Assembly: GCF_018882405.1 (NCBI RefSeq)
Contig: NZ_JACVOO010000003.1
Span: forward strand, 1 to 64,000
Direction of reading: 5' to 3'
DNA: 64,000 nucleotides
From: Polynucleobacter sp. 31A-FELB
GTDB lineage: Bacteria; Pseudomonadota; Gammaproteobacteria; Burkholderiales; Burkholderiaceae
A program made the translations under genes and the position numbers. A model generated the notes under the pieces. That model was given only the letters and a program-made list of their open reading frames with translations. It was not told the origin of the DNA and ran no database searches. The stretch's first letter is position 1. Every line of letters starts with the position of its first letter. Shown here in pieces: positions 45,005-51,625 of this stretch.

Positions 45005-45709
45005 CTAAGTTACTGAATTAATTGATATTATTTTCTTAGGGCGGCCACGATGGCGAATCAATGTCTGCTCGGGATTATCTTTAAATAGTTTTTTAGCGTA
45101 AATATCGCTCACCCAAGGCTTAGATCTGACTAATGCCTCAGTAATTTGACGATCTTCCCAATGGGGAGCGCCCTCCTTCACAAATCCCGCCCAAGTCATT
45201 TGCCTCTCAAAAGGGGTATTACCCAATTTCCAAAAGTGCTGGTGATCAACTAACCAAGGCTCTGCATTGCCGCCAATATGGGATGCAAAACTGGTCCACG
45301 TTGAATCTTGGGGGCTAGATTCAAAACCAGCTCTCACGGGGTTTAACTCAATATAGCGTTGGCAGCGCAAAAAATAGTCTGGGTCTATTAGCGAGGAGCG
45401 ATACCGTCCCTCCCAAATAGTTCCCGAACGGTTGTGTTGTTGATTGAAATACTGGGCATAACGCCTACCTAGAGATTGCATCGTCTTAGAAAGCGAATCT
45501 GCGTTTTGGGGAGTGATCAGTAGATGAACATGATTAGGCATCAATGCAAAAGCGTGGACTGCACTCCCAAATTGCTTTGCAGCTTCTCGCAGCCAATCTA
45601 GATAAATACGGCGGTCCGCATCATTAAAGAAAAGCACTTCACGATTATTGCCACGAACCATGACATGCATTGCTTGGCCAGGAATAATGGTGCGCGCTTG
45701 CCTTGCCAT
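45005..45709 (-). CDS. REP-associated tyrosine transposase (RAYT, Y1/IS200-like)
   Basis: 234 residues. The HUH motif is ALMPNHVHLLITP and the likely catalytic tyrosine is in CQRYIELNPVRAG. The N-terminus MARQARTIIPGQAMHVMVRGNN is typical of the Y1_Tnp RAYT subgroup, a domesticated single-strand nuclease thought to act on REP palindromes rather than to move itself. It is 12 bases downstream of mrcA in the same direction. The basic C-terminus (RHRGRPKKI) may bind DNA. No full IS200 ends are seen. Confidence 0.88.
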   Translation of the reverse strand: MARQARTIIPGQAMHVMVRGNNREVLFFNDADRRIYLDWLREAAKQFGSAVHAFALMPNHVHLLITPQNADSLSKTMQSLGRRYAQYFNQQHNRSGTIWEGRYRSSLIDPDYFLRCQRYIELNPVRAGFESSPQDSTWTSFASHIGGNAEPWLVDHQHFWKLGNTPFERQMTWAGFVKEGAPHWEDRQITEALVRSKPWVSDIYAKKLFKDNPEQTLIRHRGRPKKIISINSVT

Positions 45710-45721
45710 TGCTAAAACGAA

Positions 45722-48058
45722 CTACTGCAGTTCGCGCACACCGCCGTTATTGGAAAATTCTGGGATAAACCAATCGCCATCAACTTGAGTTACACCCGCA
45801 GGCACTTCACGACCTTGTTGTGGCTCATCTTTCAGAGCGGTACTCATATAAGAAATCCACATGGGCAAAGCAAGACCGCCGCCAGTCTCACGATCACCTA
45901 AGCTTGTCGGTTTATCAAATCCAATCCAGGCAATAGCCACTACCTTTGGGTTGTATCCCGCGAACCAAGCATCATGAGAATCATTGGTTGTACCTGTTTT
46001 GCCCGCGATATCACTGCGACCCAATTTCGCTCTCGCACTTCCAGCGGTTCCAGTCTTTGTCACTTCTTGCAACATGCTGTCCATTACAAAAGCCGTTCTT
46101 GCATCCAGCACGCGAGGTGCGTCTTCTCGGGCATGGGTAGGCTTAGCTTCAAATAAAACCGTTCCTTTTGAATCCGTCATTTTATTAATTAAGAATGGAT
46201 CTACGCGGTAGCCGCCGTTAGCAAACACGCTGTAAGCGGATGCCATTTGCAGGGGCGTTACAGAGCCAGCACCCAAAGCCATAGTTAAGTAAGGCGGATG
46301 CTTCTCCTTTTCAAAACCAAAACGCTGAATATATTCTTGTGCGTAGGATGGGCCAATTGCGCGAATGAGTCGCACAGATACCAAGTTCTTCGATTTAGCT
46401 AAAGCAGTACGCAAGCGCATCATGCCTTCATACTTGCCATCATAGTTCTTTGGCTCCCAAGCTTGGCTACCGGTTTCCATGCTTCCAATAGACAGCGGTG
46501 CATCGTTCACCATCGTGCTTGGAGAAAAACCTTTTTCAATTCCAGCCGCATAAATAAATGGCTTAAATGAAGATCCTGGCTGGCGCTGAGCCTGAGTAAC
46601 GTGATTAAATTGATTGCGACGGAAATCAAAACCACCTACCAAGGAAAGTATCGCACCCGTCTCGGCATTCATAGAGACAAAGGCTGCTTCAACCTGGGGT
46701 AATTGCGCTAACTTCCAAACGCCACCATCCGAAAGCAATCTAATGATGGCTCCAGGACGCAAACGTTTTTTGGGTTGAGTGCTATCCGTTAAAGAGGCGG
46801 CAGCAAGTTTCATACCCTCACCTTTCAGCGTGATCGTATCCCCCGTTGAAATCATCACTTGCATTTCTTTTGGCTTGACATCGAGCACAACACCGGACTG
46901 CAAATCATCTAACTGAGGGTATGCCAACAAGGCCTCATCAATTGCGCGCTGACGCTTGACTTGATCTTCTGGCAAATCAATAAATCCTTCTGGACCACGA
47001 TAAGCGTGACGCAAGTCATATTCAAAAATACCGCGACGTACTGCCTTATATGCCGCATCTTGATCCGCCTTCAGGATCGTGGTGTAGACATCGATACCCT
47101 GGGAATAAATTGCTTCGCCGTATTGCGTAAACAGTAATTGACGCACCATCTCCGAAGCAAAATCAGCGCGGGTACTAAATTCATTTCCAAGACCACGGAT
47201 GTGCAACTCTTCCGCCATAGCAACTTGATACTGCTCGGGAGTGATATACGACAAATCGCGCATCCGCTGCAAAATGTATTCCTGACGAATCTTGGCACGA
47301 CGGAAGTTGCTTACCGGGTTATATGCAGATGGCGCTTTTGGCAAACCAGCCAACATCGCTGACTCCGCAATAGTGATGTCTTTTAATTCTTTACCGAAAT
47401 AGATTTGGGCTGCACTAGAAAATCCATAAGCCCTTTGTCCCAAAAAGATCTGATTCATATAAATCTCAAGAATCTTGTCTTTACTTAATTGAGACTCAAT
47501 TTCCCAAGATAGGAGAACTTCGTAAATCTTGCGACTAAAGGTCTTTTCATTACTCAGGAAGAAGTTTCGGGCCACCTGCATCGTGATGGTTGAGGCCCCC
47601 TGAGAGAGGTTGCCACGTAAATTGGTGAGGGCCGCTCTAAGAATGCCTACGTAGTCCACCCCGCCATGAGAGTAAAAACGATCGTCCTCAATGGCTAAGA
47701 CGGCATTACGCATACTCATGGGGATTTCATTCAAAGGAATCACCTTACGGCGCTCCTCCCCAAACTCACCGATCAGGACCTTATCGGCCGTATAGATGCG
47801 TAATGGTGTTTTGGGGTTGTAATCGACCAGCGCCGAGATCTTCGGCAAATTCGGCTTTGCTATTAAGAAGGCATATCCCAGTAACAATGTAATTACCACC
47901 GCAAAGACCATGCTAATAATCAGCAGCGCCTTAATCAGGGGATTACTTCCTGATTTTCTGGATGAGACATGCTCCGCTCTAGGCTGACCGGGACGTCTAT
48001 CAGGCTGTCGGTTAAACCGCCGATTTAAGGGCGGCTTGTCTTTTGGGGGTAGAGCCAT
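45722..48058 (-). CDS. mrcA: Penicillin-binding protein 1A (class A)
   Basis: Bifunctional peptidoglycan synthase of 778 residues. A basic N-terminus and anchor (LLIISMVFAVVITLLLGYAF) precede the GT51 glycosyltransferase domain with AIEDDRFYSHGGVD and QGASTITMQVARNFFLS. The transpeptidase domain has the serine box PGSSFKPFIYAAG, the SxN motif in SKNLVSVRL and the KTG box GKTGTTNDSHD. No Shine-Dalgarno precedes the ATG; TATAAT ends eight bases upstream. It is divergent from the pilus-like genes, as pbp1A is in many betaproteobacteria. Confidence 0.95.
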   Translation of the reverse strand: MALPPKDKPPLNRRFNRQPDRRPGQPRAEHVSSRKSGSNPLIKALLIISMVFAVVITLLLGYAFLIAKPNLPKISALVDYNPKTPLRIYTADKVLIGEFGEERRKVIPLNEIPMSMRNAVLAIEDDRFYSHGGVDYVGILRAALTNLRGNLSQGASTITMQVARNFFLSNEKTFSRKIYEVLLSWEIESQLSKDKILEIYMNQIFLGQRAYGFSSAAQIYFGKELKDITIAESAMLAGLPKAPSAYNPVSNFRRAKIRQEYILQRMRDLSYITPEQYQVAMAEELHIRGLGNEFSTRADFASEMVRQLLFTQYGEAIYSQGIDVYTTILKADQDAAYKAVRRGIFEYDLRHAYRGPEGFIDLPEDQVKRQRAIDEALLAYPQLDDLQSGVVLDVKPKEMQVMISTGDTITLKGEGMKLAAASLTDSTQPKKRLRPGAIIRLLSDGGVWKLAQLPQVEAAFVSMNAETGAILSLVGGFDFRRNQFNHVTQAQRQPGSSFKPFIYAAGIEKGFSPSTMVNDAPLSIGSMETGSQAWEPKNYDGKYEGMMRLRTALAKSKNLVSVRLIRAIGPSYAQEYIQRFGFEKEKHPPYLTMALGAGSVTPLQMASAYSVFANGGYRVDPFLINKMTDSKGTVLFEAKPTHAREDAPRVLDARTAFVMDSMLQEVTKTGTAGSARAKLGRSDIAGKTGTTNDSHDAWFAGYNPKVVAIAWIGFDKPTSLGDRETGGGLALPMWISYMSTALKDEPQQGREVPAGVTQVDGDWFIPEFSNNGGVRELQ

Positions 48059-48198: not shown

Positions 48199-48879
48199 AT
48201 GCCTCCACGCCACATTTCCCCCCAGTCTTTTGATGACATTCTGAGTGAATTGGGGGATGACCCCGCCATTCCAGATCCCCACGGAATTCGAAAATCGTCC
48301 TCCCCTCCCAGGGAAGATTTCGCGGCCAAAACAAAGACTCCAAAGCCGTCTTTTCTGACTAAATCCTTTGAGTTAAATAGGCCTCATTTCAGCTCGATTT
48401 GGATCCTTGGCGCCCTCTTATTAATCTGCGGGGGCGGCCTCTTTTTCTATTTTGACGCCAATAAATCTGGTGCTGAAGGTGAAATAAGTAGCCTACAGAA
48501 TCAACTATTCGCCCTCAAGAAAGACTTTGAGTTATCTCAAAGAGAATGGGCATCTGAGAGAGATTATCTATATGATGCAATAGATCAAATGGAAGTGAGT
48601 ATTCACTCAATAGTGATAAAACCAGCAATACAGGCACCTCAAAGCAAGCCAGCAGCCATCCCACATGAGACTGATCTTCGTCGTTGGAGGTATTTGGGCA
48701 TTACCCGTATGGGGGCAGTGGAGCACGCTTTTTTTCATACCGGCAAGTCCACAAGGATGGTGGTCAAACAGGATCTGGTATTAGGCGAGTGGCGCCTAAC
48801 TCAAGCTGAAAAAGAGCTGGCTATCTTGACCCACTCCAAAGGTAAATCCATCACTTTTAAGTCAACCCAATCAGAGTAA
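48199..48879 (+). CDS. Bitopic membrane protein at pilus-secretin locus, PilP-like tail
   Basis: 226 residues from ATG at 48199 (MPPRHISPQSFDD), eight bases after AGGG. A proline-rich cytoplasmic part (1-60) is followed by a membrane helix (IWILGALLLICGGGLFFYF, residues 67-85), a probable coiled coil (about 93-130), then a linker and a small C-terminal domain, RWRYLGITRMGAVEHAFFH to the end. In most betaproteobacteria pilMNOP occupy this spot between pbp1A and pilQ. The layout (helix, coiled coil, beta-type tail) recalls PilN/O fused to PilP, but this is inference; I do not recognise the family. Confidence 0.6.
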   Translation: MPPRHISPQSFDDILSELGDDPAIPDPHGIRKSSSPPREDFAAKTKTPKPSFLTKSFELNRPHFSSIWILGALLLICGGGLFFYFDANKSGAEGEISSLQNQLFALKKDFELSQREWASERDYLYDAIDQMEVSIHSIVIKPAIQAPQSKPAAIPHETDLRRWRYLGITRMGAVEHAFFHTGKSTRMVVKQDLVLGEWRLTQAEKELAILTHSKGKSITFKSTQSE

Positions 48880-48884
48880 CTTTA

Positions 48885-49997
48885 TTGAATATCTTACAAA
48901 AATCCCGTGCCGCCCGGCTAGCCTTAGTAGTGGTTTTTTTGATCAACCCAGCCTTGGGAAATGTTCCAGAAGGAAGCGCTTCGGCCACCCTCAAAGATAA
49001 TCGTATTAGCCTGCAATTTAGCCAAATTGAAATGACTGAACTTTTGCAGGTTTTGGCAAAAATGGGGAATACCAACTTCCTCCTCAGCGAATCTATTCAG
49101 GGCAAGATCTCGGTCGATCTCAAGGACACCCCTTGGCAAACTGCCCTCCATTCCATTCTTGCCAGTCGGGGATTAAGGCTTGTCCGAAATGGCGATATTT
49201 ACTGGATTGGCCCTCATGCAGAAATTCAGAGTTTTCAAAAGTTTCGACGGGAGGATGCCGCCCTACCTTTTGGGGGCGATCACATTAATAGCCCTCGCCA
49301 GATCCTTATTGAGGCTCGCATCGTCGAGGCGGATCAGCGCTTTGCCCGCGAACTAGGAATGAAGTTGGGATACCAGGCCAATGGCATTGGCAATCGCCCA
49401 GATCAAAACGCCAGCGCCAATCTTGATCTGGGAGGGACTGGCTTAGCTGGCTTTAACCCAGCCACCTTGGCTGCAACCCTGGTTTCCAAGAATGCTGCCA
49501 GACTACTACAAATAGAGCTTTCAGCCCTCGAATCTGATGGTCAGGGCAAGATTCTCTCCAACCCCCGGATCATGACTGGCGATCAAGTTAAAGCCACAAT
49601 TGAGCAGGGAACTGAGCTGCCATATCAAGTGAGCTCTCAAAGCGGGAGCAAATTACAGTTCCGTAAAGCCAATTTACGCCTAGAGGTCTTGCCAAAGATT
49701 CATCCTGACGGGAAGATCTCAATGTTGGTAGGGATCAATAAAGACACTATTGGCATGAAAACCGAACAGGGCTATGCCATTGACACCAAAAATCTCAGCT
49801 CCGAGGTAACCGTTGAAAATGGGGGCACAGCCATCATTGGAGGTATTTTTCAAACCACCGAACGCGATGATGAAATCAAGGTTCCACTTCTCGGTGATAT
49901 TCCCTTGATTGGCCATTTATTTCGACACAAATCCAAATTAGCAGATAAAACTGAGCTATTAGTCTTCTTAACCCCCACCGTGCTGGACAAACACTAA
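48885..49997 (+). CDS. Short secretin of the PilQ/HofQ family
   Basis: 370 residues, about half a full PilQ and close to E. coli HofQ. A signal peptide ends near NPALGNVPEG. An STN/N1 domain (LQFSQIEMTELLQVLAKMG) precedes RQILIEARIVEADQRFAREL, and the secretin domain holds GKILSNPRIMTGDQVKATIE and GGTAIIGGIFQTTERDDE. It ends PLLGDIPLIGHLF-KLADKTELLVFLTPTVL. There are no AMIN domains. The start is TTG at 48885, six bases after the previous gene. It forms the outer-membrane channel for type IV pili or DNA uptake; aroK follows. Confidence 0.85.
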   Translation: MNILQKSRAARLALVVVFLINPALGNVPEGSASATLKDNRISLQFSQIEMTELLQVLAKMGNTNFLLSESIQGKISVDLKDTPWQTALHSILASRGLRLVRNGDIYWIGPHAEIQSFQKFRREDAALPFGGDHINSPRQILIEARIVEADQRFARELGMKLGYQANGIGNRPDQNASANLDLGGTGLAGFNPATLAATLVSKNAARLLQIELSALESDGQGKILSNPRIMTGDQVKATIEQGTELPYQVSSQSGSKLQFRKANLRLEVLPKIHPDGKISMLVGINKDTIGMKTEQGYAIDTKNLSSEVTVENGGTAIIGGIFQTTERDDEIKVPLLGDIPLIGHLFRHKSKLADKTELLVFLTPTVLDKH

Positions 49998-50009: not shown

Positions 50010-50534
50010 GTGAACTCTTCATCCAACAATATCTTTCTGATTGGCCTTATGGGCGCCGGGAAGTCGACCGTCGGCAAATTGCTGGCCAAGAAATTGGGTC
50101 GTCGATTTTTGGATGCCGACCATGTGATTGAAGATCGTTGCGGAGTCAAGATTCCCGTCATCTTTGAAATGGAAGGTGAGGATGGATTTCGCAAACGTGA
50201 GGCTCAAGCCATCAAGGATATTACCGCTGAACATGATGTCATTTTGGCAACTGGTGGTGGCGCCGTACTCCTGCCCGAGAATCGTCAGCTCCTCAGCGAA
50301 AGAGGGACAGTAATTTATCTGCACGCCAATCCGATGGAGCTATGGCATCGCACTAAAGGTGGTGAAGGTAGGCCGCTACTTAAAAATGGTGATGCAAAAA
50401 AGATTTTAGAAAACCTATACGCCATTCGTGATCCCCTGTATCGCGAAATCGCTGACTATGTAATTGAGACTGGAAAGCCCAGCGTCAATCAACTAGTCAA
50501 TACCCTCATCATGCAACTCGAACTCTCCGCATAA
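50010..50534 (+). CDS. aroK: Shikimate kinase
   Basis: 174 residues. Phosphorylates shikimate with ATP in the aromatic pathway. Walker A is [12 protein letters not shown], the shikimate-binding DADHVIEDR follows, and [14 protein letters not shown] is the second substrate motif. The start GTG at 50010 directly abuts GGAGG (50005-50009), an unusually close spacing; no later start keeps the P-loop, so coupling with the secretin stop 13 bases upstream is likely. First of the aroK-aroB pair. Confidence 0.95.
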
Positions 50535-50542
50535 ATTTATCC

Positions 50543-51625
50543 ATGAAAACATTAGAAGTTGATCTAGGCAATCGTAGCTACCCCATTCATATCGGTACGG
50601 ATTTAATAGATCAGCCAGAATTATTTAGCGCTTGCGAAAAAGCGACCTCAATTTATATCGTTACCAATACGACAGTTGCACCTTTATATGCAGAGCGTCT
50701 CACCAAGACTTTAGAGAAGCTCGGTAAGCCCGTCAGAACGATTGTGCTGCCTGATGGGGAGTCTTATAAGGACTGGAAAAATCTTCAATTGATTTTTGAT
50801 GACCTTCTTAAATTTGGTGCTGATCGCCAAACTATGTTGGTGGCTTTAGGTGGTGGTGTTATTGGTGACATGACCGGGTTTGCTGCTGCCAGCTTTATGC
50901 GCGGCATCCGCTTCATTCAAGTGCCAACAACCTTGCTGGCCCAGGTGGACTCTTCTGTCGGTGGCAAGACAGGTATTAACCACCCACTCGGAAAAAATAT
51001 GATTGGGGCGTTTCATCAGCCAGCAGCAGTGATTGCCGACCTCAATACCTTGAAGACATTGCCTGCCCGCGAGCTTTCTGCAGGTCTAGCTGAAGTGATC
51101 AAACATGGCGCAATTGCAGATGCTGAATTCTTAAGCTGGATAGAAGCAAATGCAAAAGCTTTGCTAGCGTGCGATACCGCAGCAATGGCGCATGCAGTAT
51201 TACGCTCTTGCGAAATTAAATCAGCTGTTGTTTCAGCAGACGAAAGAGAAGGCGGCATCCGTGCCACTCTCAATTTTGGACATACCTTCGGTCACGCAAT
51301 CGAGGCCGGCATGGGTTACGGTGAGTGGTTACATGGTGAAGCTGTTGGCTGCGGCATGGTCATGGGTGCAGACCTCTCACGACGTCTGAACTTCATCACT
51401 CAAGATGAAGTTAATCGCTTAACTCAAATTATTGAGTCTATGAATCTGCCGATTGTTCCACCCAAGTTTGGCGCCCAGCGTTATATGGAATTAATGCAAG
51501 TAGATAAAAAGACTGAGGGCGGTCAAATTCGTTACGTCGTTTTAGAAAAGATTGGCAAAGCGCAAATTAAGAGTGTTCCCGATGCTCAGGTCATCGAGAC
51601 CCTAACAGCGACTGGGGCAGTTTAA
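50543..51625 (+). CDS. aroB: 3-dehydroquinate synthase
   Basis: 360 residues. Closes DAHP to 3-dehydroquinate with catalytic NAD and zinc. The NAD-binding segment is [19 protein letters not shown] and the following [19 protein letters not shown] is the family signature. Zinc ligands lie in [10 protein letters not shown] and in [13 protein letters not shown]. It is 8 bases after aroK and tail-to-tail with cyaY (14 bases apart). Confidence 0.96.

Follow-up and report, generated by a model that had tools for sequence, protein, structure and literature searches.

A probable remodelled pilMNOPQ locus in Polynucleobacter: a GspC-like protein beside a shortened PilQ secretin

Which machine is served by the two genes lying between pbp1A and aroK in Polynucleobacter sp. 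31A-FELB is the question addressed here, using a window of 64,000 nucleotides (contig NZ_JACVOO010000003.1, positions 1 to 64,000) from a genome of 2.24 Mb in 48 contigs. From the sequence alone, the original prediction had placed a bitopic protein of 226 residues and a secretin of 370 between these flanks. Both open reading frames (ORFs) were confirmed, with five bases separating the end of gene 1 from the start of gene 2:

48199–48879, + strand: gene 1, a bitopic protein of 226 residues with a cytosolic tail, one membrane helix, a coiled coil and an HR domain (ATG at 48199, stop ending at 48879; ORF and AlphaFold2 model)
48885–49997, + strand: gene 2, a PilQ-type secretin of 370 residues (TTG start, stop ending at 49997; PilQ model)

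The pair is probably a remodelled pilMNOPQ locus, serving a reduced type IV pilus for DNA uptake whose secretin is linked to the inner membrane by a single GspC-like protein. The comparison set comprised 61 genomes, 37 from Polynucleobacter and 24 from the outgroup. Seventeen outgroup loci, from 17 of the 24 genomes and picked because PilQ and PilP matches located them, were read. In all of them pieces of mrcA, pilN, pilO and pilP were found in one stretch with a secretin frame of 688–867 residues. In 16 of the 17 aroB or aroK came next, and in 13 a frame with a PilM-like pattern, which is a loose one and no test, stood ahead of pilN. The expectation that most betaproteobacteria carry pilMNOPQ between pbp1A and aroK was thus borne out for pilN-O-P-Q in 17/17 loci. 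Since the outgroup carries pilN-O-P-Q between the same flanks, the Polynucleobacter pair, judged by gene order, occupies the place of pilMNOPQ, the block that ordinarily connects the motor of a pilus with its gate in the outer membrane.

The gene pair was found at this site in 37/37 Polynucleobacter genomes, broken in two (G017 and G023) and split between contigs in one (G022). A piece of pbp1A and a piece of aroK or aroB were present on one fetched stretch in 36 of the 37; in the remaining genome, G022, gene 1 lies with pbp1A on one contig and the secretin with aroK/aroB on another. A search with the gene 1 sequence gave matches (E ≤ 0.01) in 29 of the 37 genus genomes and in 30 of all 61, the sole match outside the genus being a weak one in G041 (E 0.008). 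In each of the eight genus genomes with no match (G003, G005, G006, G009, G025, G027, G029 and G032) an equivalent frame was found directly upstream of the secretin; it begins with, for example, MFKR or MLKR and continues with a single hydrophobic helix, a coil and a C-terminal part that resembles HR. Five of these eight frames, which were outside the training alignment, matched the HR profile at E values from 6.9e-7 to 4e-16 (for a one-protein search). By these comparisons gene 1 is not a chance ORF, because its own sequence finds matches in 29 genomes and a frame of the same layout stands at the same place in the other eight. When genome contigs were scanned with gene 1, 75 loci were obtained, which belong to named Polynucleobacter strains or bins and to metagenome bins labelled Burkholderiaceae or betaproteobacteria. 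Secretin matches were obtained in 37/37 genus genomes, with an open frame of 363–412 residues in 34 of them.

Pairwise ratios of nonsynonymous to synonymous substitution (dN/dS) against four relatives (G008, G012, G018 and G031) were 0.23–0.29 for the whole of gene 1, 0–0.033 for its tail and 0.07–0.16 for its HR domain; the values for gene 2 were 0.035–0.055. By these values purifying selection acts on both genes.

Secondly, what remains of the secretin was determined. Gene 2 consists of the following parts after its N-terminal region:

48996–49241, + strand: N0 domain, residues 38–119 (Pfam STN over the cut-off, type_II_gspD_N0 below it; alignment with PilQ N0; model)
49242–49292, + strand: linker of 17 residues, residues 120–136, where other PilQ proteins hold N1 (alignment spacing)
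49293–49994, + strand: secretin core, residues 137–370 (Pfam Secretin at 214–367; best stretch of TIGR02515 at 137–367)

The protein exceeded the Pfam cut-offs for Secretin and STN and passed the NCBIfam PilQ model TIGR02515 (306.7 bits, cut-off 284.35), as against 171.5 bits as GspD, and the two NCBIfam HofQ cut-offs were not reached (205.3 of 554 and 169 of 598 bits). The AMIN domain, which the original prediction had described as lacking, gave no match in the Pfam scan, and in addition the N1 domain (about 62 residues) is missing. In the alignment with Neisseria meningitidis PilQ (4av2), residues 22–119 correspond to residues 302–402 and residue 135 to residue 486, so that 16 residues replace 84. 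In the 17 outgroup PilQ proteins, all measured, there are 56–71 (median 62) extra residues between N0 and the core, and 243–368 extra residues ahead of N0. Within the genus the difference in N0–core spacing ranged from −6 to +1 in 34 of the 37 genomes, G017, G022 and G023 not being measurable; it was 0 in 68 of the 75 loci, the other seven being cut by a contig end or broken. Because of this shortfall against both the outgroup PilQ and 4av2, gene 2 is read from its alignments as a secretin without the N1 domain and the AMIN region. It would thus be a PilQ cut to signal peptide, N0 and secretin core. The loss of N1 is taken from the sequence spacing and not from the AlphaFold2 model of the secretin, in which N0 alone is confident. 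Horizontal gain of a HofQ-type secretin was considered and set aside, since the same flanks and the PilQ score favour descent in place.

The N1-type domain of HofQ reportedly binds DNA, and for this reason the loss of N1 in this secretin would matter for models of DNA uptake. In the part of a 2014 review that was consulted (PMC4471445), N0 and N1 are stated to be present in all secretins.

Thirdly, the nature of gene 1 was examined. Its product is divided as follows:

48199–48294, + strand: residues 1–32, conserved cytosolic peptide (majority-residue frequency 0.92; dN/dS 0–0.033)
48388–48456, + strand: residues 64–86, predicted membrane helix, the first part of helix 64–140 (AlphaFold2 model; hydropathy peak)
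48457–48618, + strand: residues 87–140, predicted periplasmic coiled coil (one long helix in the AlphaFold2 model; weak PDB profile matches, largely to long helices and coiled coils)
48664–48876, + strand: residues 156–226, PilP/GspC-type HR beta domain (predicted fold and profile comparison)

The AlphaFold2 model, built from 55 sequences, showed a short helix at residues 8–18, a long helix at 64–140 and a beta domain at 164–222. The block means of the predicted local distance difference test (pLDDT) were 90–91 over residues 161–220, the predicted template modelling score was 0.34, and the tail and the linker preceding the long helix were poorly modelled. Structural comparison of this model by VIA-align (VIA-align 2) gave PilP or GspC-type HR domains in all of the top eight rows (Z 9.4–7.1, five of them >8), with root-mean-square deviations (rmsd) of 2.4–3.5 except for 2ivw (8.7); chain 3jc8_Pa is counted here as PilP by its name. 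The PilP structures 2y4y_B (Z 9.4, rmsd 3.5, 69 residues aligned) and 2y4x_A (Z 9.0, rmsd 2.4, 67 residues aligned) were found alongside the HR domain of GspC (Z 8.6). The first clearly unrelated beta protein, beta-lactoglobulin, scored Z 5.7, and coiled coils scored up to 6.8; a Z below 8 may reflect merely a common arrangement, and a family outside the listing may also match. A fold unrelated to PilN, PilO or PilP, which would have spoken against the original prediction, was therefore not what the model gave, its HR fold being nearest to PilP and to the GspC HR domain.

Sequence profiles were in agreement with the fold. With profile A8, made from 17 diverse members, PilP proteins were the two best of 177,635 PDB sequences (E 5.4e-4 for 2ivw and 1.2e-3). 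Alignment by hhalign of the HR part of A8 with the outgroup PilP profile gave a score of 30.4 and a probability of 78.9, as compared with a score of 11.5 ± 2.6 (best 18.7) and a probability of at most 7.6 in 60 local shuffles. For the same HR part the probability was 0.1–0.2 against PilN and PilO, and at most 2.1 for eight column shuffles against PilP. The relation to PilP emerges once divergent members of the genus are added, the probability being 24.7 with A2, 32.8 with A8 and 78.9 with the HR part alone. On the predicted model and these profiles, the C-terminal domain of gene 1 is an HR domain of the PilP/GspC fold, related to PilP by sequence.

The layout of the protein, as predicted, matches GspC or the plasmid-type PilP rather than PilN or PilO. 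By inspection no lipoprotein signal peptide was seen: the protein starts with MPPRHIS, and its first long hydrophobic stretch lies near residue 64. The original prediction had called this protein unknown; its C-terminal domain has now been identified, by predicted fold and by profile. The helix and the coiled coil of that prediction are in the model, the HR domain follows them, and the conserved cytosolic peptide lies ahead of the helix. Matches of gene 1 far below the cut-offs were DUF7813 (E 0.18) and PRK10920 (E 0.031). T2SSC of Pfam gave no match in gene 1, although in one of the seven genus relatives scanned (G032) it was matched at E 0.015 (15.6 bits, cut-off 27) over the helix, the linker and the HR domain; Pfam matches in these seven relatives and in locus L037 were all weak.

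A PilO origin of the helix–coil half of gene 1, by a PilO–PilP fusion, was considered and not adopted. By hhalign this half gave a probability of 70.8 and a score of 32.2, versus 0.1–2.8 for six block shuffles. Column shuffles within windows of 10, however, gave 22.9 ± 4.3 with 1/60 above; with windows of 7 the scores were 22.8 ± 3.8, with 0/60 above and a best value of 32.0. A generic helix and coil may thus score comparably. PilN was no better than PilO for this half. A PilO–PilP fusion is mentioned for Pseudomonas putida in the consulted part of PMC3169554.

The most conserved segment of gene 1 is its beginning. Among the 55 sequences the mean majority-residue frequency was 0.92 in residues 1–32, 0.33 in residues 33–62, 0.39 in the membrane helix, 0.53 in the coil, 0.44 in residues 141–155 and 0.66 in the HR domain. 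Much of this tail varies among the nine divergent rows of alignment A8; what they keep is a start such as MFKR and, in seven of the nine, an F-D or Y-D a few residues on. Such tight conservation within the main clade is suggestive of a docking site, and the tail may bind PilB or PilC.

The flanks of the pair, and the other genes seen on either side, are as follows:

45722–48058, − strand: pbp1A/mrcA, conserved left flank (named by reading; blastp probe in relatives)
50010–50534, + strand: aroK, conserved right flank (named by reading; blastp probe in relatives)

The start of aroB follows aroK at 50543 on the + strand, and no gsp genes were seen by reading to adjoin the locus. A gene for an IS200-like Y1 transposase (PF01797, E 2.3e-16) lies immediately downstream of pbp1A, on the same strand as the latter, at 45005–45709.

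Whether the rest of a pilus is encoded was then asked of the whole genome, which the original prediction had proposed to search for pilM/N/O, pilB/C/T, comEA and comEC. A short PilB, a PilC, ComEA and ComEC were found, and PilM, PilN, PilO and a PilT over the cut-off were not. The genes pilB-pilC-pilD-coaE-zapD form a run at L038 8846–12885, CoaE and ZapD being named by Pfam. PilB, of 356 residues, aligns to positions 177–461 of the 564-position PilB model, the first 176 model positions being absent, and because this N-terminal part is missing it remains below the NCBIfam PilB cut-off (377.7 bits, cut-off 675.65). PilC has 357 residues, and PilD has 166, of which the peptidase domain alone was matched. 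T2SSE, T2SSF, Peptidase_A24 and Pilin of Pfam, corresponding to PilB, PilC, PilD and the major pilin, were over their cut-offs, the pilin being of the PilA type (PF00114). A four-gene minor-pilin-like cluster has one prepilin signature over the cut-off and one below. ComEA has 131 residues and ComEC 829; matches of ComEA size were present in 37/37 genus genomes, 32 over the cut-off and five just below it. From the shortening of PilB and PilD (L038 8846–11480) the whole pilus machine looks trimmed.

A PilB-type match in a frame of 358–403 residues was found in 34/37 genus genomes, the others being of 815 residues in G011 and 339 residues at a contig end in G025, and broken in G017. The frame of 815 residues (G011:C6:3460–4398) is perhaps merged with an upstream CorC-like gene, such as precedes pilB in the source genome. 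Outgroup PilB-type matches at E < 1e-100 were, among the matches listed, all in frames of at least 486 residues, PilB being mixed there with GspE-type ATPases.

For PilT, the four T2SSE matches in this genome, which are PilB and three ATPases of an apparent conjugative element on contig C46, fell short of the PilT/PilU cut-off of 319.1 with 158.5, 96.5, 95.6 and 44.8 bits. G010, G011 and G016 each gave one T2SSE match at E 0.001, the PilB-type one (scored candidates 26/30 in G010 and 26/29 in G011). The only other secretin in this genome lies within the same apparent conjugative element, which carries type IVB pilus genes of its own. This element occupies C46 86000–122000 (L039, L040), with VirB11 over the cut-off and other VirB-like genes recognized by eye; its type IVB set comprises a PilN-type secretin of 576 residues (under the TIGR02520 cut-off), PilP (TIGR03021), PilO (PF06864) and an ATPase of 545 residues.

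The alignment complex was sought in the same way. No full pilMNOPQ set was found elsewhere in this genome: PilN, PilO and PilP gave no match at E 0.001, and the sole PilM_2 match, in a search that covered this genome only, was MreB (PF06723, 489.7 bits). PilO was matched in 0/37 genus genomes versus 19/24 of the outgroup. PilP over the cut-off was found in 0/37 versus 18/24, with one sub-threshold match in G036, far from the pbp1A–aroK locus. PilN matches were obtained in 4/37 (G002, G012, G023 and G036) versus 20/24. The idea that the inner-membrane alignment complex has shrunk to one protein is supported by the lack of PilM, PilN and PilO matches in this genome.

Several observations weigh against the reading of the pair as a remodelled pilMNOPQ locus. 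The HR assignment comes from fold prediction and from the comparison of profiles; neither for gene 1 nor for the seven genus relatives scanned did a PilP or GspC family exceed its cut-off. Foldseek with the gene 1 model gave no match at E ≤ 0.001, its first four being the GspC HR domain (3oss, E 4.2e-3), chain 3jc8_Pa, which we take to be PilP from its chain name, and two PilP structures. The close-relative profile A3 (55 sequences) had no PilP among its PDB matches, which were mostly long helices, and showed nothing over the HR domain when compared with the outgroup PilP. The secretin core was poorly modelled as a monomer (mean pLDDT 49.9). The PilN-type matches of the four genus genomes are frames of 557–580 residues elsewhere, beside another motor ATPase. 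Highly divergent PilM, PilN and PilO may exist at other places in the genome, as gene 1 too goes unrecognised by the family models. Finally, in the open literature, with subscription journals largely uncovered, neither experiments on pili or transformation in Polynucleobacter nor any account of this pilus or uptake system in the genus was found. Separately, the second pilus-like cluster of G002, G023 and G036 is also close to another secretin, which was not noted for the cluster of G012.

It might be argued that PilM, PilN and PilO are encoded elsewhere, diverged past recognition, and that the machine is scattered and not reduced, as would fit the invisibility of gene 1 to Pfam and NCBIfam and its poor conservation apart from the tail and the HR domain. 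We consider this unlikely: the PilN and PilO models that find nothing here do find matches in 20 and 19 of the 24 outgroup genomes, the PilM model matches only MreB in this genome, and the pilBCD, pilin and minor-pilin stretches hold no PilM, PilN or PilO candidate by eye. Alternatively, the pair could belong to an export channel in the form of a small pseudopilus resembling type II secretion, with gene 1 as a genuine analogue of GspC and no role in DNA uptake. The GspC-like order of helix, coil and HR domain, the presence of the GspC HR domain among the nearest folds and the weak, below-cut-off T2SSC match across that span in one relative (E 0.015) are in line with such a channel. It is nevertheless quite improbable, in view of a secretin that scores better as PilQ than as GspD, a pilin that matches PF00114, the presence of ComEA and ComEC, and a locus that, by reading, no gsp genes adjoin. 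By its content of ComEA, ComEC and a PilA-type pilin, the gene set favours DNA uptake rather than export.

The locus is broken in a few lineages. In G017, a genome of 1.55 Mb, gene 1, the secretin and pilB are all in pieces, which suggests, from the state of these frames, that one reduced lineage has lost the pathway; the secretin of G023 is split over two frames; gene 1 of P. necessarius PPGSP2 (L113) contains a stop, next to an open secretin frame; and in P. aenigmaticus (L177) both genes are broken, the translation having seven stops and the secretin frame not being found. A ComEA-size frame is still open in G017 (L235, G017:C1:20000–28000). That these broken copies mark a locus which no longer works and is decaying towards loss is very improbable given the purifying selection on both genes, the nearly invariant gene 1 tail, the 78% mean column identity of the secretin (28 sequences) and the open secretin frames in 34/37 genus genomes.

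If the pair is a remodelled pilMNOPQ locus, its operation can be proposed as follows. Gene 1 would be a PilP-type HR domain that, in the manner of GspC, is joined through a coiled coil to a membrane helix, with a short conserved peptide on the cytosolic side. Because gene 2 keeps the N0 domain that HR domains bind and gene 1 keeps the binder domain, gene 1 would be the tie between the secretin and the inner membrane, its HR domain binding N0 by analogy with PilP and PilQ N0 and with GspC HR and GspD N0. According to the parts of the sources that were consulted, PilP binds PilQ through N0 and not N1 (PMC3441751), and N0 of GspD contacts the HR domain of GspC in crystal structures (PMC3169554). 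The coiled coil would oligomerise and span the space usually filled by N1 and PilN/PilO, and PilB or PilC would be the docking site of the tail. The pilus, powered by the trimmed PilB, would pass the secretin and bring DNA in, ComEA and ComEC carrying it over the inner membrane. In the absence of a recognisable PilT, retraction would fall to PilB itself or to some other mechanism; competence pseudopili without PilT still pull DNA, as stated in the consulted part of PMC4471445.

A bolder proposal, which we hold as tentative and somewhat short of an even chance, is that one bitopic HR protein takes the place of all of PilM-N-O-P, with its tail on the motor or platform, its coil across the periplasm and its HR domain on an N0 ring without N1, to give a working type IV pilus without PilMNO or PilT and with a two-domain secretin. 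If true, this would give a naturally occurring minimal type IV filament in a diderm bacterium. The alignment complex and the secretin would be reduced here beyond any example known to us. With pilus genes, a secretin and a PilP-type connector, and without a recognisable PilO or PilP family or N1 (in this genome also without PilM and PilN), Polynucleobacter offers a natural deletion experiment, and the reduced pair a natural test of which type IV pilus parts are needed. It addresses, in a freshwater genus with many cultured strains, both the requirement for N1 and the role of PilMNOP, for which the consulted part of the 2014 review (PMC4471445) describes a debate on whether it drives the assembly of the filament or serves only to link the two membranes.

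Among known systems, the type IVa PilP (PF04351; 2IVW, 2LC4, 2Y4Y) shares with gene 1 the HR beta domain, the position ahead of the secretin and a detectable sequence relation. Gene 1 differs from it by the absence of a lipobox, the cysteine at position 18 being invariant in 17 outgroup PilP proteins, by its anchor of membrane helix and coiled coil, by its cytosolic tail, and in that no PilN or PilO partners were found. With GspC (PF11356; HR structure 3OSS), whose HR domain binds the secretin N0, it shares the bitopic layout with an HR domain, as far as topology is predicted; it differs in giving no family match over the cut-off, in lying outside a gsp operon (by reading, GspL and GspM not having been searched as such) and in its extra conserved tail of 32 residues. 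The type IVB or plasmid PilP (TIGR03021), with one copy in this genome (L039 12239–13024), likewise has, by eye, a helix, a linker and a C-terminal beta-rich domain near a secretin gene, but it is of a different family and stands beside the PF06864 PilO and the secretin of 576 residues. As for the secretins of the PilQ (TIGR02515) and HofQ types, gene 2 has their N0 and core, passes the PilQ cut-off and sits at the ancestral locus, and it differs from them in being without AMIN and N1 and in not reaching the HofQ cut-offs. The ComG competence pseudopilus of Gram-positive bacteria, which is not known to have PilMNO, resembles the Polynucleobacter system in its short motor ATPase and its lack of PilT. 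The matches of PilB and PilC to the ComGA and ComGB models remain below the cut-off, and the Polynucleobacter system differs by its outer membrane and secretin.

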